16,968 nucleotides of DNA. Source: an uncultured Labedella sp. Its GTDB lineage: Bacteria; Actinomycetota; Actinomycetes; Actinomycetales; Microbacteriaceae. Position 1 is the first letter of the stretch. Every line of letters begins with the position of its first letter. This document shows, piece after piece, positions 4,646 through 13,353 of the stretch. The notes beneath the pieces were generated by a model. That model ran no database searches. It was given only the letters and a program-made list of their open reading frames with translations, and was not told where the DNA came from. Location: the NCBI GenBank assembly GCA_934636065.1, contig CAKTZW010000007.1, positions 1 to 16,968 of the forward strand, in the 5' to 3' direction. The position numbers and the translations under genes are program-made.

Positions 4646-6079
4646 TCAGACCTGGTCCGCGCGCCCTGACCACCACTCGAGCAGGCGGCGCTCCGCCTCC
4701 TCCTCGCCGAGCGGGCCCTCGTCGAGACGCAGCTCGAGGAGGAAGCGGTACGCCTCTCCGACGACGCGCCCCGGTCGGACGCCCAGGACCTCCTGGATGC
4801 GGTTGCCGTCGAGCTCCGGTCGCACTGCGTCGATCTCCTCCTGCTCGCGCAGGTCGGCGATGCGGTGCTCCAGATCGTCGTACGCAAATCCGAGCCGGTC
4901 GGCCTTCCGTCGATTCCGCGTCGTGACGTCGGCGCGCGTGAGCATGTGCAGCCGCTCGAGGAGCGGACCAGCGTCCCGCACGTAGCGGCGGACGGCGGAG
5001 TCGCTCCACGCCGCCTCGGTGTAGCCGAAGAAGCGGAGGTGCAGCTCCACGAGCCGGGCGACGTCGCGGATGGTGTCGCCGTCGTAGCGCAAGGCGGTGA
5101 GGCGCTTCTTCGCGAGCTTCGCGCCCACGATGTCGTGGTGGTAGAACGTGACGCCGCCCGGTTCGGTGCGCTTGGTGGCGGGCTTGCCGATGTCGTGCAG
5201 CAGGGCCGCGAGGCGAAGCGTGACGTCCGGCTCCTCCCCCGGGTGCCGCTCCTTCTCGTACCCGATCGCCTGATCCAGCACCGTCAGGGAGTGCTCGTAC
5301 ACGTCCTTGTGATGATGGTGCTCGTCGATCTCGAGCCGGAGCGCGGGGATCTCGGGCAGGAAGCGCTCGGCGAGACCGGTGTCGACGAGGAGTCGGATGC
5401 CGTTCCGCGGCGCGTCGGTGCTGAGGAGCTTCGTGAGCTCGCCCTGGATGCGCTCGGCGCTCACGATGTCGAGCGTCGCCGCCCGTTCGGCCATCGCGGC
5501 CCGCACCTCCTCGTGGACCGAGAAGCCGAGCTGCCCCGCGAAACGGGCGGCCCGGAGCATGCGCAGGGGGTCGTCCCCGAAACTCACGTCGGGGTCGATG
5601 GGCGTGCGGAGGACTCCGGCCACGAGGTCCTCGACGCCGCCGGACGGATCGACGAGGGCCACCTCCGGGACGCGCAGCGCCATCGCGTTGACGGTGAAGT
5701 CGCGGCGGGCGAGGTCGCCCTCGAGTGAATCGCCGAACGCGACCACGGGCTTGCGGGTCGTGCCGTCGTACTCGTCGGCACGGTAGGTGGTGATCTCGAC
5801 GGTCTCGCCGTCCACCCGAGCGCCGATGGTGCCGAAGTCGCGACCGATGTCCCACTGCGCCGTGGAGATCGGCGTGACGATCCGCAGGATCTCGTCGGGA
5901 CGCGCATCGGTGGTGAAGTCGAGGTCGTTCGTGCCGCGACCGAGCATCGCGTCCCGCACGGGACCGCCGACGAGTGCGAGCTCGTGGCCCGCGTCGCGGA
6001 AGGCTGTGGCGAGAGCGGTGACGGTGGGAAGGCCGGCGAGGGTCTGCAGGCGCACGAGTGCCTCCGCCATCTTCACCAT
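4646..6079 (-). CDS. cca: CCA tRNA nucleotidyltransferase
   Basis: The product is 477 residues and adds or repairs the 3'-CCA end of tRNAs using CTP and ATP. The class II nucleotidyltransferase head has VGGPVRDAMLGR and the catalytic DLDFTT. It is followed by the RRDFTVNAMAL segment, the RMLRAARFAGQLGF motif of the poly(A) polymerase/CCA family, and a C-terminal HD domain (HHHHKDVYEHSL, ALLHDIGKP). Length fits the actinobacterial enzymes that carry an HD domain. Three in-frame ATGs lie at 6088, 6079 and 6070. I chose 6079 because a TACGAT hexamer ends exactly 7 nt upstream, a leaderless-promoter arrangement, and no good ribosome binding site precedes any of the three. Essential in most actinobacteria. 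The function call is secure; the start is less so. Confidence 0.95.
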   Translation of the reverse strand: MVKMAEALVRLQTLAGLPTVTALATAFRDAGHELALVGGPVRDAMLGRGTNDLDFTTDARPDEILRIVTPISTAQWDIGRDFGTIGARVDGETVEITTYRADEYDGTTRKPVVAFGDSLEGDLARRDFTVNAMALRVPEVALVDPSGGVEDLVAGVLRTPIDPDVSFGDDPLRMLRAARFAGQLGFSVHEEVRAAMAERAATLDIVSAERIQGELTKLLSTDAPRNGIRLLVDTGLAERFLPEIPALRLEIDEHHHHKDVYEHSLTVLDQAIGYEKERHPGEEPDVTLRLAALLHDIGKPATKRTEPGGVTFYHHDIVGAKLAKKRLTALRYDGDTIRDVARLVELHLRFFGYTEAAWSDSAVRRYVRDAGPLLERLHMLTRADVTTRNRRKADRLGFAYDDLEHRIADLREQEEIDAVRPELDGNRIQEVLGVRPGRVVGEAYRFLLELRLDEGPLGEEEAERRLLEWWSGRADQV

Positions 6080-6086
6080 GCGGACC

Positions 6087-6092
6087 ATCGTA
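6087..6092 (-). promoter_or_regulatory. -10 hexamer TACGAT, leaderless promoter of CCA enzyme
   Basis: TACGAT fits the actinobacterial TANNNT -10 consensus and is followed by 7 nt (GGTCCGC) and then ATG at 6079, so transcription would begin at the start codon. The hexamer overlaps an alternative upstream ATG. No recognisable -35 box. Three other genes in the window share this spacing. Confidence 0.5.
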
Positions 6093-6152: not shown

Positions 6153-6920
6153 TCAGCCGTTCGCGGCGTCGGCGTACCGGTCCGCGAAGTCGGCGACCGA
6201 GGCGTTGTACTCGCGGTTCGGGTTGTACGCGTGGATCGCGGCGATCCAGTCGTCCCGCTGCGTGAGATCGCGTTCGTGCAGGCAGAGATAGCGCGCCGCC
6301 GTCAGCACCGCGTCGTCGATCTGCTGCGGGTCCGCCGTCCCGTCGACGTCGCCGTCCGAGCCGATGCCCGACCACGTGGACGGGATGAACTGCATCGGGC
6401 CGACGGCCCTGTCCCATTCGGCGTCGCCGTCGAGCGCTCCCCCGTCGGTGTCCGGGATGGCGAGCACGCCGTCCCCGTCGAGGGGGATCCCGACGATCGG
6501 AGGCGTCGCGCGGCCCGCGTCGTCGAGGGCCGAGTCGAAGATCGTCGCGTGCACCGTCTCGACGCGCCCGATCGCGGCGAGGGTCGTCCACTCGAGGCGG
6601 CACGCCGGCTGCTCGTCGGCCAGGCGCAGGGCGGCACCGGCGTACGCGGACAACGGACGGATGGGGATGCCGGTGCGGCCGGCGATCTCCGCCACCCAGT
6701 CCGGATCGGCGAGGTCCGCGATGGAGCGGGAGGCCGGCAGGGGGATCGCGTCGATGCGGTTCGCTTCCACGATCGGGTCGGTGGCACCGGGTGGGCCGCC
6801 CGCCTCGTCGCTCGGTCGAGGGCCGCCGACTGCGAGCGCCACGAGGGCGGCTATGACCACGACGACGAGCGCCGAGGCGATGACGGTGGTCACGACGAGG
6901 CCGCGCGTCGCGGGGCGCAT
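6153..6920 (-). CDS. Membrane-anchored lytic murein transglycosylase
   Basis: The product is 255 residues and is predicted to cleave peptidoglycan glycan strands outside the membrane. One N-terminal membrane anchor (about 7-31) is followed by a Pro/Gly-rich linker and an SLT/MltB-like domain. Seen are AAIGRVETVHA with candidate catalytic Glu121, VGPMQFIPSTW (173-183), DVDGTADPQQIDDAV, the cysteine pair C107/C213, and AIHAYNPNREYNASVADFADRYA near the C-terminus. These match the family's order of motifs, although the Glu context reads ETVH where many relatives have ESNH. I chose ATG 6920, which has GGAGG just upstream. An ATG at 7022 would add a 34-residue Arg/Thr-rich cytoplasmic tail and cannot be excluded. 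Confidence 0.88.
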   Translation of the reverse strand: MRPATRGLVVTTVIASALVVVVIAALVALAVGGPRPSDEAGGPPGATDPIVEANRIDAIPLPASRSIADLADPDWVAEIAGRTGIPIRPLSAYAGAALRLADEQPACRLEWTTLAAIGRVETVHATIFDSALDDAGRATPPIVGIPLDGDGVLAIPDTDGGALDGDAEWDRAVGPMQFIPSTWSGIGSDGDVDGTADPQQIDDAVLTAARYLCLHERDLTQRDDWIAAIHAYNPNREYNASVADFADRYADAANG

Positions 6921-7018
6921 ACGCCTCCGACGGGAGACTGGTGAGCGCCTCACGGTCGTCCGCGGAGTCGTCCGCGGAGCCGTCCGCGAGGGCCGGCCAC
7001 GACCACGATCACCGCGAC

Positions 7019-7075
7019 TCATCCGCGGCACCGCAGAGAGGTGCGGGCGGACGGCATGGGGCACGGGTGGGGCAT
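7019..7075 (-). other. Possible upstream leader peptide for lytic transglycosylase
   Basis: An 18-codon ORF runs from ATG 7075 to a TGA that overlaps the alternative transglycosylase ATG at 7022 in an ATGA arrangement. It begins a few bases after the predicted transcription start of the TACACT promoter. If translated it could couple translation to the 7022 start. It has no recognisable peptide features and may be fortuitous. Confidence 0.2.
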
Positions 7076-7085
7076 GGCGCTCACG

Positions 7086-7091
7086 AGTGTA
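7086..7091 (-). promoter_or_regulatory. Candidate -10 hexamer TACACT upstream of lytic transglycosylase
   Basis: TACACT fits TANNNT and lies between the hairpins that end the surface-protein transcript and the transglycosylase gene, where a promoter is expected. Transcription would start near 7078, giving a leader of about 55 nt to ATG 7022 or about 160 nt to ATG 6920. No -35 element is seen. Confidence 0.3.
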
Positions 7092-7123
7092 GACGGCACG
7101 ACTGTCCGCGGGCTGCGCTCGAA

Positions 7124-7172
7124 CGACGAGGAGCCCGTCACGGCGGCCTCAGCCGTGACGGGCTCCTCGTCG
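7124..7172 (-). terminator. Perfect 21-bp hairpin downstream of surface-protein gene
   Basis: The arms 7124-7144 and 7152-7172 are perfect reverse complements (21 bp) with a 7-nt loop GGCCTCA. On the - strand the stem is followed by TTC only. It is the second of two hairpins met by transcripts leaving the surface-protein gene and is the strongest stem in the window. Confidence 0.75.
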
Positions 7173-7210
7173 GACGGGAGGGACGACCGATCATGCGTCC
7201 CTCCCGTCCG
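7171..7210 (-). terminator. Perfect 15-bp hairpin immediately after surface-protein stop
   Basis: CGGACGGGAGGGACG (7171-7185) pairs perfectly with CGTCCCTCCCGTCCG (7196-7210), loop 10 nt, starting 5 bp after the surface-protein stop codon. It shares its outer CG (7171-7172) with the neighbouring 21-bp hairpin, so the two stems abut. No T-run. Probably a terminator or a 3'-end stabilising structure. Confidence 0.65.
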
Positions 7211-7214
7211 GTCC

Positions 7215-10200
7215 TCAGTCGGTCAGCGCTCGCCGACGGGCCACCACGATGCCGAGACCGGTGAGCAGCGCGAGCAGGCCCGCGACGCTCCAGAGTCCCA
7301 GTTCGGCCGAGGGGCCGGTCACCGCGAGCGGAGGCCGCACGACGGTGGAGGAGACGGCGCAGTCCGCGTCCTCGGAGCCCTCGATGCAGTTGCCGCCGAG
7401 CGGCGTGACGACCGCGTTGTTCAACTCACCGTTGCCGGCGATCGGGTCGGCGACGGTCACCGAGTAGGTGACGGTCGTCTCCTCTCCCACCGCGAGCGCA
7501 CCGGACCACGACAGGACCGGGGCCGCGTAGGTGGCTCCGTTGGTCGCGTCGTCGTTGTAGGCGGCGTCGTCGATCACGTCGGACAGGTCGTCCGTGAAGG
7601 ACGCGGGGTCCTCGTCGGTGTAGTCGGCCGCACCCGTGTTCGTGACGGTGATCGTGTAGGTCACGGTCGCGCCCGGCTTGACGTCCGTCGAGCTCACGGT
7701 CTTGACGACCTCGAACGACTGCACCGGGGTGGTGGTCGCGCAGCTGTCGTCCGTCACGCACTCGCCGCCGGTGCCGGTCGGGCGCACGAAGTTGGACAGC
7801 GTCTGGTCGCCCTCCACCGGCGAGTCGACCGTCACCGAGTAGGTGATGGCGATCGTCTCGCCCACGGCCAGCGGGCCGGACCACGTGAGCAGGTCGCCGT
7901 CCACGACGGCCCCGTTCGAGGCGTCGCCGTTGTACGTCGCGTCATCGAGCACTGCCGAGAGGTCGTCCTCGAAGGACGCCGGGTCGGCCGCGGTGTAGGC
8001 GGCCTTTCCGGTGTTCGTCACCTCGACCGTGTAGGTCAGCGTCGCGTCCGGGTTGATCGTCGTCGACGATGCCGACTTGGCCACCGTGAACGACTTCGCC
8101 GGGATCTCGACGTTGCACGCCGGGTCATCCGAGTCAGGCGGGCAGTTGCCGCCGACACCCGTGACGACGGTGTTCGGCAGCACGCCGTCGCCCGTCGCCG
8201 GGTCGTTGACCGTCACCGAGTAGGTGACCGTCACCGTCTCGCCCACGGCGAGTGGACCGGACCACGAGATCGTGGGCTCGTCGTACGTGGCGCCGCTCGT
8301 CGCGTCGTCGTTGTACGTCGCGTCGTCGAGGATCGCCGACAGGTCGTCGGTGAACGTCGCCGGCTCGCCGTCCGTGTAGGCGACCGCTCCGGTGTTCTCG
8401 ATCTCGATCGTGTAGGTGATCGTCCCGCCGAGGACGACCTCGTCGGTGTCGGCCGTCTTGGTGGTGGAGTACGACTGCACGAGCGTGCTCGTCTCGCAAC
8501 CGTCCTCGGTCTCGCAGTCGCCGCCGGGGCCCGTGGGCACGGCCGCGTTGCGGAGATCGTTGTCACCGTTCACGGGGTTGTCGACGGTCACCGAGTACGT
8601 GACGGTGATCGACTCGCCGACCTCCAGCGATCCCTCCCACGTGAGCGTGACGCCCGTCACGACGGCGCCGTTCGTGGCGTCACCGTTGTAGGCGGCGTCA
8701 TCGAGCACGCCGGTGAGGTCGTCCGAGAACGACGCGGGGTCCTCGTCGGTGTAGTCGGTCTGGCCCGTGTTGGTCACCGTGACCTCGTAGGTCACGATGC
8801 CGCCCGGGTTGACGGTCGTCGCCGACGAGGTCTTCGCGACGGAGTAGGACTGCAGCTCCGTCGTCGTGGAGCACTCGCCGACGCACTCGCCGCCGGGGAC
8901 GGTGGGCACGACGACGTTCTCGAGGACGCCGTCGCCGGTGCCCGCAGCGGCCACCGTCACGGAATACGTGATCGTGATGGTCTGGCCCACTGCGAGGGCG
9001 CCCGACCAGGTCAGGGTGTCACCGTCCACCACGGCGCCGTTCGTGGCGTCGTCGTTGTACGTCGCATCGTCGAGGACGGCCGAGAGGTCGTCGTCGAAGG
9101 AAGCAGGCGCCTCGTCGGTGTAGGCGGCGCCTCCCGTGTTCGTCACGGTGACGGTGTAGGTCACGGTGTCGCCCGGGTTCGCCGTCGTGGCGGACACCGC
9201 CTTCTCCGTCGTGTAAGAGGAGACGTTGGTCGTCGTCGTGCAGTCGTCCTCCGTGGCGCACACTCCGCCCGGACCGTCCGGCACGACAGCGTTCGTGAGG
9301 ACGCTGTCGCCCGTGACGGGATCGTCGACGGTCACGGAGTACGTGATGGTGACGGTCTCCCCGAGCCCGATCGGGCCCGACCAGCTGAGCGTGTTCCCGG
9401 ACACGGTGGCGCCGTTCGACGCGTCGCCGTTGTAGACGGCGTCGTCGAGCACGTCGGACAGGTCGTCGGTGAACGACGCCGGCTCCTCCGTGGTGTACGG
9501 CACGTTCCCGGTGTTCGTGACCGAGATCGTGTAGTCGACCGTGTCACCCGCGGTGACCGTCGCCGCCGACGACGTCTTCGCGACCGTGTACGACGGGTCG
9601 GGGCACAGGGCCACCGACTCCACCTCGGCGTTGAAGCCCTCGGCCACGTAGTAGCTCGCGACCTGCACGGTGATCGTGTTCAGACCCGTCTGCCACGGTC
9701 CGTCCAGGGTCGTGCTCGCCGCGCTGCCCGGGAGGAAGCCACCACCCTGATACGGGGCGTCGGGGCTCTGCGGGAGGTTGTCGCCCTCCTGCAGCTGCTC
9801 GTTCACCCAGACGGCGTTGACGCTGTTGTCCGCCATCCAGTTCATCTTGAGCTGGAACGAAGCGGGGTCGACGGCCGCGTCGAGGTCGAACTGGTACCGG
9901 TAGTACCACGTGCCGTATCCGTCGGACTGGTTCTGCCCGACGACGTAGTTCGCCGTGATCCACTGCGACTCACCCGAGAGGCTGTCCGCCCAGGCGGCGT
10001 TCGCCTTCCCGGCGAACGCCGCGGAGTACGTCGTGCCCTCCGGGGGCAGCGTCGCGGCGAGAGGACCCGCGGGCGGAGTCCCCGGCCCGTGGTCGAGCCC
10101 GTCCACTCCACCGGCGACCATCCACCGCTCGTCGGGAACACCGTTGGGGGTCTGACCGCCGGTCTCGGCGTCGTAGCCCGTGTTGAAGATCACCGGGTCG

Positions 10201-11399
10201 GTCGTGCAGGTGACCAGGGGGATGTCCGCGTCCGTGACCGTGAGGGTCGACTCGCCGGGCTCGTTGAGGCCGGTCGTCGTGACGTTGTCCGGCCCGTTGA
10301 CGAACGAGCCCGTGCCGTCGGGGACGACCGTCACCGTGATGGTGCAGGAGGCCTGACCGGCATTGAGGTTGCCGGAGGCGGTGATCGTGTCGCTCCCTGC
10401 CGGAGCCGTCACGACGCCCGCGGCACAGGTCGTCGAGGCGCCGGAGGGGTTCGCGACCGAAAGGCCCTCGGGAAGCGCATCGGTGAAGGACCAGCCGTTC
10501 TTCGCGGCGAGCTCCTCCGTGTTCGTGACCGTGAACGTCAGCGTGCTCGTCTGTCCGAAACGGATCGCCGTCGGGCTGAACGACTTGTCGAGCTGCGGGG
10601 TCACGTCGAGGATGCGGATGTTGTCGAAGGCCGCGTCGTTGCCCTGGCCGGAACCGTTCGCGTTTCGCATCCGCACGCCGACCGTCGCGCCGTTGAAGAG
10701 GACGGAGCCGTTCGAGGTGTAGGTGTCGACGTTGATCGCTCGTGCGGGCAGAGTGCCGTATGCCGGCACATTCACCGTGTTGCTCGAGGTGCAGGCGTTG
10801 ATGAGGCCGCCAACGTTCGTGGCGGCGCCCTGAGCGTTGACGAACGAGAACTGGTACTGGGGTGCGGACACCTGGCAGTTCACGGCCGCGGTGTCGACGC
10901 TGAAGGTCAGGAAGCGGCCGGAGGCGTCCGCCAGGGGGATACCCGTCGCCGTCTGGAACTCGATCGCGTTCGCGCCGGGGCTGTTCTCGGTGTACGCGGC
11001 GACGGCGTGGTTGTTCGCCGGGGTCGCCGCGTTGCTGTGAGCGCCGAGCGCGTAGGCGAGCTGGCCCATGTTCTCCGTCGACGACTGCGCCGTGCAGTTG
11101 CCGAGCGTCGTGATCGGGGTGTTGAAGCTGCGGACCTGCCCGTTACAGCCGGTCAGCCAGCCGTTGTCGGCGGTGTACTGCTGTCCGGTGGCGCCGGTGT
11201 AGTTCGTCAGGAGAACCGGAGTCGTTCCGACGCCGTTCTCGAAGTTCTCCTCGAACGCCACGGTGTTCGCCTGGGGGGTACCAGGTGTCCCGGGTGCTGC
11301 GCTCGCCGGGACGGCGGCGACGACGGCCCCGACGGTGAGGCTGGCGACACCGAGCACGGTGCTGAGAAGAGCCGACAGCAGACGAGATGGTCGACGCAC
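7215..11399 (-). CDS. Sortase-anchored multidomain surface protein with six DUF11-like repeats
   Basis: The product is 1394 residues. The start is GTG 11399, with AGGAGG 9 nt upstream. A longer frame from a TTG at 11537 adds a non-signal-like N-terminus and is rejected. A Sec signal peptide (MRRPSRLL, hydrophobic core, cleavage after ASA at 34) leads to three domains: about 42-265 (unrecognised; Cys 85, 102, 175, 203), 268-392 (DUF11/DUF7933-like, beginning LDKSFSPTAIRFGQTSTLTF), and 396-600 (a lectin- or CBM-like beta domain bracketed by C398 and C599). Six repeats of 123-127 residues span 603-1354. The end is LAVTG (1358-1362), a hydrophobic segment and ARRR, a class E sortase signal. The protein is therefore probably covalently attached to the cell wall as a long stalk displaying the N-terminal domains. 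The target is unknown, and adhesion is inference. No sortase gene lies in the window. Confidence 0.93.
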   Translation of the reverse strand: MRRPSRLLSALLSTVLGVASLTVGAVVAAVPASAAPGTPGTPQANTVAFEENFENGVGTTPVLLTNYTGATGQQYTADNGWLTGCNGQVRSFNTPITTLGNCTAQSSTENMGQLAYALGAHSNAATPANNHAVAAYTENSPGANAIEFQTATGIPLADASGRFLTFSVDTAAVNCQVSAPQYQFSFVNAQGAATNVGGLINACTSSNTVNVPAYGTLPARAINVDTYTSNGSVLFNGATVGVRMRNANGSGQGNDAAFDNIRILDVTPQLDKSFSPTAIRFGQTSTLTFTVTNTEELAAKNGWSFTDALPEGLSVANPSGASTTCAAGVVTAPAGSDTITASGNLNAGQASCTITVTVVPDGTGSFVNGPDNVTTTGLNEPGESTLTVTDADIPLVTCTTDPVIFNTGYDAETGGQTPNGVPDERWMVAGGVDGLDHGPGTPPAGPLAATLPPEGTTYSAAFAGKANAAWADSLSGESQWITANYVVGQNQSDGYGTWYYRYQFDLDAAVDPASFQLKMNWMADNSVNAVWVNEQLQEGDNLPQSPDAPYQGGGFLPGSAASTTLDGPWQTGLNTITVQVASYYVAEGFNAEVESVALCPDPSYTVAKTSSAATVTAGDTVDYTISVTNTGNVPYTTEEPASFTDDLSDVLDDAVYNGDASNGATVSGNTLSWSGPIGLGETVTITYSVTVDDPVTGDSVLTNAVVPDGPGGVCATEDDCTTTTNVSSYTTEKAVSATTANPGDTVTYTVTVTNTGGAAYTDEAPASFDDDLSAVLDDATYNDDATNGAVVDGDTLTWSGALAVGQTITITYSVTVAAAGTGDGVLENVVVPTVPGGECVGECSTTTELQSYSVAKTSSATTVNPGGIVTYEVTVTNTGQTDYTDEDPASFSDDLTGVLDDAAYNGDATNGAVVTGVTLTWEGSLEVGESITVTYSVTVDNPVNGDNDLRNAAVPTGPGGDCETEDGCETSTLVQSYSTTKTADTDEVVLGGTITYTIEIENTGAVAYTDGEPATFTDDLSAILDDATYNDDATSGATYDEPTISWSGPLAVGETVTVTYSVTVNDPATGDGVLPNTVVTGVGGNCPPDSDDPACNVEIPAKSFTVAKSASSTTINPDATLTYTVEVTNTGKAAYTAADPASFEDDLSAVLDDATYNGDASNGAVVDGDLLTWSGPLAVGETIAITYSVTVDSPVEGDQTLSNFVRPTGTGGECVTDDSCATTTPVQSFEVVKTVSSTDVKPGATVTYTITVTNTGAADYTDEDPASFTDDLSDVIDDAAYNDDATNGATYAAPVLSWSGALAVGEETTVTYSVTVADPIAGNGELNNAVVTPLGGNCIEGSEDADCAVSSTVVRPPLAVTGPSAELGLWSVAGLLALLTGLGIVVARRRALTD
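7278..7328 (-). other. Class E sortase cell-wall sorting signal (LAVTG)
   Basis: Residues 1358-1362 of the surface protein read LAVTG, followed by a hydrophobic stretch (about 1367-1387) and the basic tail ARRR. Class E sortases of high-GC Gram-positive bacteria are known to use LAXTG in place of LPXTG. Cleavage between T1361 and G1362 would link the protein to peptidoglycan. Confidence 0.85.
7338..9593 (-). repeat. Six tandem repeats of about 375 bp inside the surface-protein gene
   Basis: Protein-level repeats lie at residues 603-727, 728-850, 851-975, 976-1102, 1103-1227 and 1228-1354 (DNA 9219-9593, 8850-9218, 8475-8849, 8094-8474, 7719-8093 and 7338-7718). Each carries YTVTVTNTG, PASFxDDL, LDDAxYNxDA, LxWSG, GETxTITYSVTV, LxN and GGxC...C. 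Repeats 4 and 6 share a CX8C ending and VVTxxGGNC, while 1, 3 and 5 share CX5C. This suggests at least one duplication of a two-repeat unit. The DNA is also similar between copies, so recombinational copy-number change is possible. Confidence 0.92.
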
Positions 11400-11471
11400 G
11401 GTCAACCGCCTCCTCCCCTCGGCAGTGTGTGATGGCGTGCGAGTCGGCACAGTGATTCCCTCCGGTAGCGA

Positions 11472-11781: not shown

Positions 11782-13353
11782 ATGGACGTGACGGCGAGAG
11801 CCGACGATTCCCCCGTGCGGTCACGGACCGACCGGACGCACCAGCGCATCCCCGTCGGCCGCTTCCGCGTCGCCATGTCCGAGGTCATCGCCCGTGAGGG
11901 GTGGCAGGCCGCGATCCCGCTCATCGAGGCGCACTGGGACGTGCTCTCCTCTGAGGCTCCTCAGCAACTGCTCGCCGTGATCCGCTCGCTCCCCGGCGCC
12001 GCCTTCGTCGATCGCCCCACGTTGCTCGTCGCGGCCAACTACCTCCAGCACGTCGTCGCCGGCGGTGACCCCGCCCGGTTCGCGGGTGTCAACGTGGTCG
12101 ACGCCGAGATGGGAGGCGTCGAGCTCGGGCTGATGGACCGGCTCGCACTGCTGACGTCCAGGGCGGCCGACGCCCGGACCTCCGGCGATGTCACCGTCGC
12201 TCGCACTGCAGCGGAGGAGGCGCGGGCCATTCTCGACCGGTCCTCGAACCAGGAACGCGCGGCCATCCTCACCTCGCTCCCCCACATGGCCGTCCAATGG
12301 GGCCGCTCGCTCGAGCAGGCCGAGGCGCCTCGAGCGGGCTTCGAGTACGAGGAGGCGTACGAGACCGCTCTGCTGACCGATCAGGCGGCGATCGCACGGC
12401 GTGCCGCCGCGCGCCTCGCCTGGCTGCATGCGGTCCGCGGGCGGCTGAACGCCGCCGAGCTCTGGGTCGCTCGAGCGGCCGACCGCCGAGCGGGGTCCGG
12501 GCGCTACGACGGCGTCATCTACATCACGCGTGCCCTCATCCATCTCGATCGGGACGACAACGACGGAGCGCGGCGCGAGCTCGCCCTCACCGCGGCCCTC
12601 GGCGACGGCGAGGACTGGGCCGGAGCTCTCTGGGTGGAATCCATGACGGCGCGCGATGCGGCGACGGCGACGGTGATCGAGGCTCGCATCAACCAGCAGC
12701 TCGAGCGACTTCCCGAGCGGCTGGCCGTCTCGGGGGCCAACGGTCGATTCATCCGGGCGTCGGGAGCGCGCCTCGCGGCCCTGCGCGGTCGATCGGTGAA
12801 GGCGTCCATGCCTCCCCAGCGTGATTCGACCACGACGGATCTGGTCATCGCGGGTGCCGTCGCCCTCGCCGAGCGCCGGTATCACGACGCGACCGAGGTC
12901 ATCCAGCCCGCGACGGCCGCCGACGAGACGCCGCGCGTGCAGTCGAGCGCCCTCCTCGTCGAGGCGGCGTCGCTGCTCGCGCTCGGCCAGTCCGAGTCGG
13001 CGGAGCGCTCCTTCCGTCAGGCCCATGCGCTCATCGAGGAGGAGCGCATCCACACGACCTACGAGTGCATCCCGCCGGACTGGCTCGAACGCCTCGCGGC
13101 GCTCAGCTCGGTGCCGCCTCCCCATGCACGCTCCCCCATCCACCGGGATCCGAGCGACGCACGGCTGCTGAGCCGACGCGAGCAGGAGGTCCTCGGGCAG
13201 CTCGACACCGACCGGTCGATGGCCGAGATCGCGGCAGCGCTGTACGTGAGCGTCAACACGGTGAAGTCGACGGTCCGTCGGCTCTACCGGAAGCTGGAGG
13301 TCGACTCGCGGGGCGCCGCACTCGACGTCGCGAAGAGCCGTGGGCTGTTCTAG
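11782..13353 (+). CDS. LuxR-type regulator with helical-repeat N-terminal region
   Basis: The product is 523 residues. The C-terminus (about 462-523) is a clear LuxR/GerE DNA-binding domain: LSRREQEVLGQL, MAEIAAALYVSVNTVKSTVRRLYRKL, then RGAALDVAKSRGLF. The first 450 residues are Ala/Glu/Arg-rich and helical, with repeated AARLAWLHAVRGRLNAAELW-like and ALLVEAASLLALGQSESAERSF segments. This resembles the TPR-like sensor arm of MalT/LAL regulators, but no Walker A or B motif and no receiver domain is present. The start ATG 11782 has GGGGAG only 2 nt upstream; the in-frame GTG at 11788 has better spacing (8 nt). It is divergent from the surface-protein gene and is its likely regulator, by position only. 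The signal is unknown. Its stop overlaps the convergent downstream gene by 4 bp. Confidence 0.9.
   Translation: MDVTARADDSPVRSRTDRTHQRIPVGRFRVAMSEVIAREGWQAAIPLIEAHWDVLSSEAPQQLLAVIRSLPGAAFVDRPTLLVAANYLQHVVAGGDPARFAGVNVVDAEMGGVELGLMDRLALLTSRAADARTSGDVTVARTAAEEARAILDRSSNQERAAILTSLPHMAVQWGRSLEQAEAPRAGFEYEEAYETALLTDQAAIARRAAARLAWLHAVRGRLNAAELWVARAADRRAGSGRYDGVIYITRALIHLDRDDNDGARRELALTAALGDGEDWAGALWVESMTARDAATATVIEARINQQLERLPERLAVSGANGRFIRASGARLAALRGRSVKASMPPQRDSTTTDLVIAGAVALAERRYHDATEVIQPATAADETPRVQSSALLVEAASLLALGQSESAERSFRQAHALIEEERIHTTYECIPPDWLERLAALSSVPPPHARSPIHRDPSDARLLSRREQEVLGQLDTDRSMAEIAAALYVSVNTVKSTVRRLYRKLEVDSRGAALDVAKSRGLF

Follow-up and report, generated by a model that had tools for sequence, protein, structure and literature searches.

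The question raised by this locus is whether the stalk of a bacterial surface protein can lock itself by covalent cross-links. The window, a 16,968-nucleotide stretch of DNA from an uncultured Labedella sp. (contig CAKTZW010000007.1, assembly GCA_934636065.1), carries on its minus strand a gene for a fibrillar-adhesin-like protein of 1394 amino acids (aa), running from 11399 to a stop at 7215 according to open reading frame (ORF) calling, and its product includes six tandem repeats of 123-127 aa each (7353-9602). An earlier note on this DNA had pointed to a lysine, a pair of aspartates and an asparagine in each repeat and had proposed a chain of six intramolecular Lys-Asn isopeptide bonds with an acidic catalyst. 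On present data it is highly probable that the repeats self-lock through predicted Lys-Asn bonds, with Asp as the likely catalyst, within the stalk of a putatively sortase-anchored adhesin. This was the best-supported reading on the basis of family membership, of a fold match to the solved structure 9IFR and of the joint loss of the residues among relatives.

Triad residues, family membership and predicted fold

The residues listed in the earlier note were all found in the translation and repeat alignment: lysines K608, K733, K856, K981, K1108 and K1233, Asp645-646 and its equivalents, and asparagines N703, N828, N951, N1076, N1203 and N1328. These numbers equal those of P0001, used hereafter, minus 46. 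Spacing from Lys was constant in the six repeats, with Asp-Asp at +37/+38 and Asn at +95. The rarity of lysine was also confirmed, the protein having 13, nine of them within the 750 repeat residues and six of these nine in the triad column. The weight given to invariance was not: the six repeats share 39 invariant alignment columns, so a fixed residue within a single protein is weak evidence, and the joint behaviour of the residues was therefore examined across relatives. A seventh Lys-Asp-Asn triad was located in a DUF7933 domain, outside the region that the earlier note had covered, so that the candidate bonds would number seven instead of six.

Searched as a whole, the protein matched DUF7927 (Pfam PF25549) at 339.4 bits over seven stretches, against a cut-off of 31, and Lys, Asp and Asn stood in the order predicted for this family in all six repeats. 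Other Pfam families above their cut-offs (in brackets) were DUF11 at 147.8 (24.6), DUF7933 (PF25564) at 100.3 (26.5), whose domain here bears its own triad, and DUF7507 at 59.4 (27). The NCBIfam RrgB-D2 model TIGR04226, which describes an isopeptide-forming domain found in fimbrial proteins, scored 75.0 (30). Costa et al. 2025, who scanned AlphaFold models, include both DUF7927 and DUF7933 in their Table 1 as predicted Lys-Asp-Asn isopeptide families (PMC12617251). The same work solved a DUF11 domain, renamed CLIPPER, as 9IFR with a Lys715-Asn806 bond; it passed to disorder at about 80 °C, the Lys-to-Ala variant at about 45 °C, and the bond shielded it against Proteinase K (PMC12617251). The bond proposed in the earlier note is probably right, but it has already been predicted in print for the family as a whole, and such a cross-link can hardly be called little-described.

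An AlphaFold2 model of repeats 1 and 2 (predicted local distance difference test, pLDDT, 96.4) displayed a CnaA-like beta-sandwich fold, and its best VIA-align match was 9IFR. The triad residues fell on model strands 11-17, 48-53 and 107-114, in agreement with 9IFR as judged by end-point counting only. Foldseek placed 9IFR at rank 23; its top rows were integrin alpha chains (query TM-score about 0.35, root-mean-square deviation 11-12 Å), which were set aside because they were taken as a generic two-Ig match. When the 9IFR chain was counted from Lys715, the Asp of its LND motif came at 749 and position 748 was Asn, while Asn806 and Cys818/821 agreed; Costa et al. print Asp-748, possibly through a shift of one in print or numbering (PMC12617251).

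Joint loss and gain of the triad among relatives

A narrow set was drawn from the best 120 of 1612 relatives, the window's own protein among them. Its 1341 domains were reduced to 1284 unique ones, domains with an empty Lys (K), Asp or Asn (N) column or with fewer than 95 filled columns being dropped. Lys was conserved in 1213 of these, the first Asp (D1) in 1262, Asn in 1222 and the second Asp (D2) in only 1047. Among 1206 well-aligned domains, K-N ranked first of the column pairs, D1-N fifth and K-D1 sixth; once these were made non-redundant at 70% (358 domains), K-N, D1-N and K-D1 took ranks 1, 2 and 3. Double losses of K and N were confined to six proteins, and on the tree K was lost on six branches and N on seven, three of them shared. 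Since these losses were few and clustered, the test was repeated on a wider set.

The wide set, chosen for many losses, added the best 120 of 1724 relatives of P0105, itself rich in losses, partly overlapping the first list. In all it comprised 234 proteins together with open frames from 78 loci, some encoding the same proteins. Of its 3984 domains, 3645 were unique and complete; 3552 of these aligned well, and a redundancy filter at 65% left 726. The Tyr column, counted by the context-residue filter in the narrow set, was left out of that filter here. Among the 726 domains, K-D1 (phi 0.804), K-N (0.797) and D1-N (0.725) were ranks 1, 2 and 3 of 943 column pairs; K-Tyr88 (0.632) and Tyr88-N (0.611) came next. 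When the K, D1, Tyr88 and N columns were left out of tree building, K, with 41 losses, and N, with 45, were lost jointly on 19 branches; they were gained jointly on 15, with 24 and 31 gains, rank 1 in both cases. K-D1, K-Tyr and D1-Tyr ranked 2, 3 and 8 for losses, and K-Tyr, K-D1 and Tyr-N 2, 3 and 4 for gains. All these pair values serve to rank column pairs against one another; the P values, which presume independent branches, parsimony and a noisy tree drawn from about 100 columns, are uncalibrated.

The adjacent second Asp followed K with a phi of only 0.396. Moreover, D1 was found in all 472 domains holding both K and N, and D2 in just 325 of them, which identifies the first Asp as the triad partner. 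The Asp pair, treated as a unit in the earlier note, does not vary as one, and it is likely that the first Asp is the catalyst. The conserved Tyr was found in 95% of these 472 full-triad domains, as opposed to 31% of the 191 domains without K and N. Its ranks suggest a looser fourth partner, close to Lys and less so to D1 and N; Tyr-N at rank 19 for losses and D1-Tyr at rank 80 for gains count against a full partnership. Asp53/Asp54 and Gly98 of the repeat alignment formed a separate co-losing cluster, perhaps a metal or turn site.

Of 314 proteins or frames, 103 combined repeats with K and N and repeats lacking both within one chain, a count that rests on unique domains and in which frames and proteins overlap in part. 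Examples are P0123, with 24 counted domains (8 with, 16 without), P0131 and P0132. We tentatively propose, as a possibility somewhat short of an even chance, that the DUF7927 bond is a Lys-Asp-Tyr-Asn device turned on or off by evolution as one unit, with Tyr as an aromatic cap, and that in long relatives bonded and unbonded repeats share a chain, giving rigid and extensible segments.

Proposed mechanism and alternative explanations

The six repeats would be CnaA-like (E-set) beta-sandwich domains of DUF7927. Upon secretion and folding, the side-chain amine of Lys on the first strand would meet the side-chain amide of Asn on the last strand within the buried core; proton transfer would involve the first Asp of the pair, and ammonia would leave. 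The resulting isopeptide bond would link the first and last strands of each repeat and carry the pulling force, so that the domain would not be unzipped. The upstream DUF7933 domain would behave likewise, bringing the cross-links to seven, and the Cys pair ending each repeat probably contributes a disulfide. Such a chain would form the stalk of a monomeric fibrillar adhesin that has a jelly roll as its head and that a class E sortase would attach to the wall through LAVTG.

Several results weigh against this reading. Over all 1284 domains of the narrow set, before filtering, K-N came only 4th, D1-N 7th and K-D1 14th among 321 column pairs, and on the wide tree D1-N stood at rank 5 by losses and at rank 15 by gains. 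Exceptions among the 3645 domains were 141 with K and D without N, and 81 with D and N without K. Aligned by sequence, the match to 9IFR is weak, with Asn749 falling one residue away from the 9IFR Asn; a one-gap shift, which we infer, would bring them into register. A search of the PDB with a narrow 11-repeat profile missed 9IFR and gave a single match (E 0.66), taken as chance. Sequence comparison with the PDB and a literature search by name found no solved structure for DUF7927, and that search on the name yielded only Costa et al., where the bond is a prediction.

The same residues could alternatively form a buried network of salt bridges and hydrogen bonds that stabilises the fold, the covalent bond never closing. 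Such a network would give identical co-loss, and isopeptide positions are not universally conserved within DUF11 (PMC12617251). However, 9IFR forms its bond from the same residue kinds in the same fold (PMC12617251), and all three residues are kept in all six repeats, which makes a purely non-covalent network improbable. That the triad has no special role and is invariant as a by-product of recent duplication is scarcely credible: the 39 invariant columns do make invariance within this protein unremarkable, but the residues are conserved over 1284 domains, K, D1 and N are specifically lost and gained together when set against the other 940 column pairs, and the neighbouring second Asp tracks K far less than the first. 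Stalk rigidity might also be mainly metal-based, with calcium bound by acidic residues near the Asp pair (DDL...LDDA.YN.DA) and the Asp shared by both roles. In the repeat alignment, D53, D54, Y57, N58, D60 and A61 do not vary among the six repeats, and D53/D54 co-vary with G98 as their own cluster. The strongest partners of the first Asp, namely Lys, Asn and Tyr88, lie outside that cluster, and the protein's list of 18 Pfam families contains no calcium-binding one. Calcium binding is compatible with the bond, its probability overlapping with that of bond formation, and as the main source of rigidity it appears rather unlikely.

A CnaB-like isopeptide domain needs a catalytic Glu between Lys and Asn (PMC12617251), and Asp was found there in all six repeats. 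With Asp as the co-varying acid and the CnaA-like 9IFR as the top VIA-align match, this type was rejected; the RrgB-D2 model TIGR04226 nevertheless scored above its cut-off.

Gene layout, surroundings and relation to known systems

The order of a probable signal peptide, a jelly-roll head, a putatively cross-linked stalk and an LAVTG tail resembles that of sortase-anchored fibrillar adhesins (Table 1). The start codon is likely the GTG at 11399, with GGAGGAGG just upstream, and P0003 is 100% identical to the gene product across its full length. In the second beta-rich region, block-mean pLDDT was 25-67 and no match passed fragment residue 364 (P0001 449). The sorting signal gave a weak match to the NCBIfam LAXTG model at 1404-1436 (15.2 bits, under the cut-off of 65). 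Within the last 70 residues of the best 120 of 1612 relatives, the window's own included, LAxTG was found in 86, LPxTG in six and neither in 28. A plus-strand frame at 7041-11432 (1463 aa) was discarded, its translation looking like a low-information mirror of the coding strand.

Table 1. Features of the adhesin gene and its product; residue numbers are those of P0001
Feature	Positions	Strand	Basis
Whole gene, putatively sortase-anchored fibrillar-adhesin-like protein, 1394 aa	7215..11399	-	ORF; GGAGGAGG before GTG; P0003 identity
Probable signal peptide, 47-80, ending ...VPASA	11298..11399	-	sequence inspected by eye
N-terminal head, jelly-roll fold (CBM4/MAM-like), 86-313	10599..11282	-	
DUF7933 domain, 314-431, bearing the seventh triad	10245..10598	-	
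Seventh-triad codons K318 / D353 / N414	10584-10586 / 10479-10481 / 10296-10298	-	
Second beta-rich region without family, 440-645	9603..10220	-	low-confidence model
Repeat 1 (DUF7927): K654, D691, Y733, N749; Cys 760, 766	9228..9602	-	profile, alignment, AlphaFold2 model
Repeat 2 (DUF7927): K779, D816, Y858, N874; Cys 885, 889	8859..9227	-	profile, alignment, AlphaFold2 model
Repeat 3 (DUF7927): K902, D939, Y981, N997; Cys 1008, 1014	8484..8858	-	profile, alignment
Repeat 4 (DUF7927): K1027, D1064, Y1106, N1122; Cys 1132, 1141	8103..8483	-	profile, alignment
Repeat 5 (DUF7927): K1154, D1191, Y1233, N1249; Cys 1260, 1266	7728..8102	-	profile, alignment
Repeat 6 (DUF7927): K1279, D1316, Y1358, N1374; Cys 1384, 1393	7353..7727	-	profile, alignment
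C-terminal sorting signal: LAVTG, hydrophobic stretch, ARRR tail, 1404-1440	7218..7328	-	sequence

Just 3' of the adhesin stop, a 21-bp perfect inverted repeat with a 7-nt gap (7124-7172) is possibly a terminator; a T-tract scan, however, found none. The neighbouring minus-strand genes encode a protein with a weak lytic-transglycosylase match (6153-7064) and a CCA tRNA nucleotidyltransferase of actinobacterial type (4646-6088, 742.5 bits). A homologue of the latter was present in only one of the 72 locus stretches examined, and the adhesin therefore seems to occupy a variable location. On the other side, a divergent gene for a LuxR-type regulator with a GerE domain (11782-13353, plus strand) starts 382 bp from the adhesin start. 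A homologue was found by tblastn near the adhesin in five of 72 loci: in L003, L012 and L024 it lies upstream in the opposite direction, in L001 and L002 downstream in the same direction. This arrangement hints at dedicated control. Rfam and tRNA searches across the window gave no match. A plasmid search returned 22 records, the 20 listed matching only an ABC ATPase stretch.

The advance is modest: sequence evolution backs the predicted DUF7927 bond, picks one Asp, suggests a role for Tyr and adds a seventh candidate bond. If the bonds do form, each chain of this protein would hold up to seven internal cross-links, and very stable beta-sandwich repeats could usefully be drawn from this natural source. 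The mixed chains of relatives offer a natural control for the effect of the bond on the stalk.

Compared with the DUF7927 example of Costa et al. (Lys125, Asp161 and Asn225 of A0A6G8FG97; PMC12617251), the residue order is alike, with spacings of +37/+95 here and +36/+100 there. DUF7933, for which Lys973, Asp1008 and Asn1068 are the published example (PMC12617251), is represented by one copy with its own triad between head and stalk, separate from the six repeats. The C-terminal domains of the antigen I/II proteins SspB, SpaP, BspA and AspA show 14-18% identity and belong to other Pfam families. CLIPPER 9IFR comes from a Gram-negative adhesin and its Cys pair is CTTC, whereas three to eight residues separate the two cysteines of the repeats described here.
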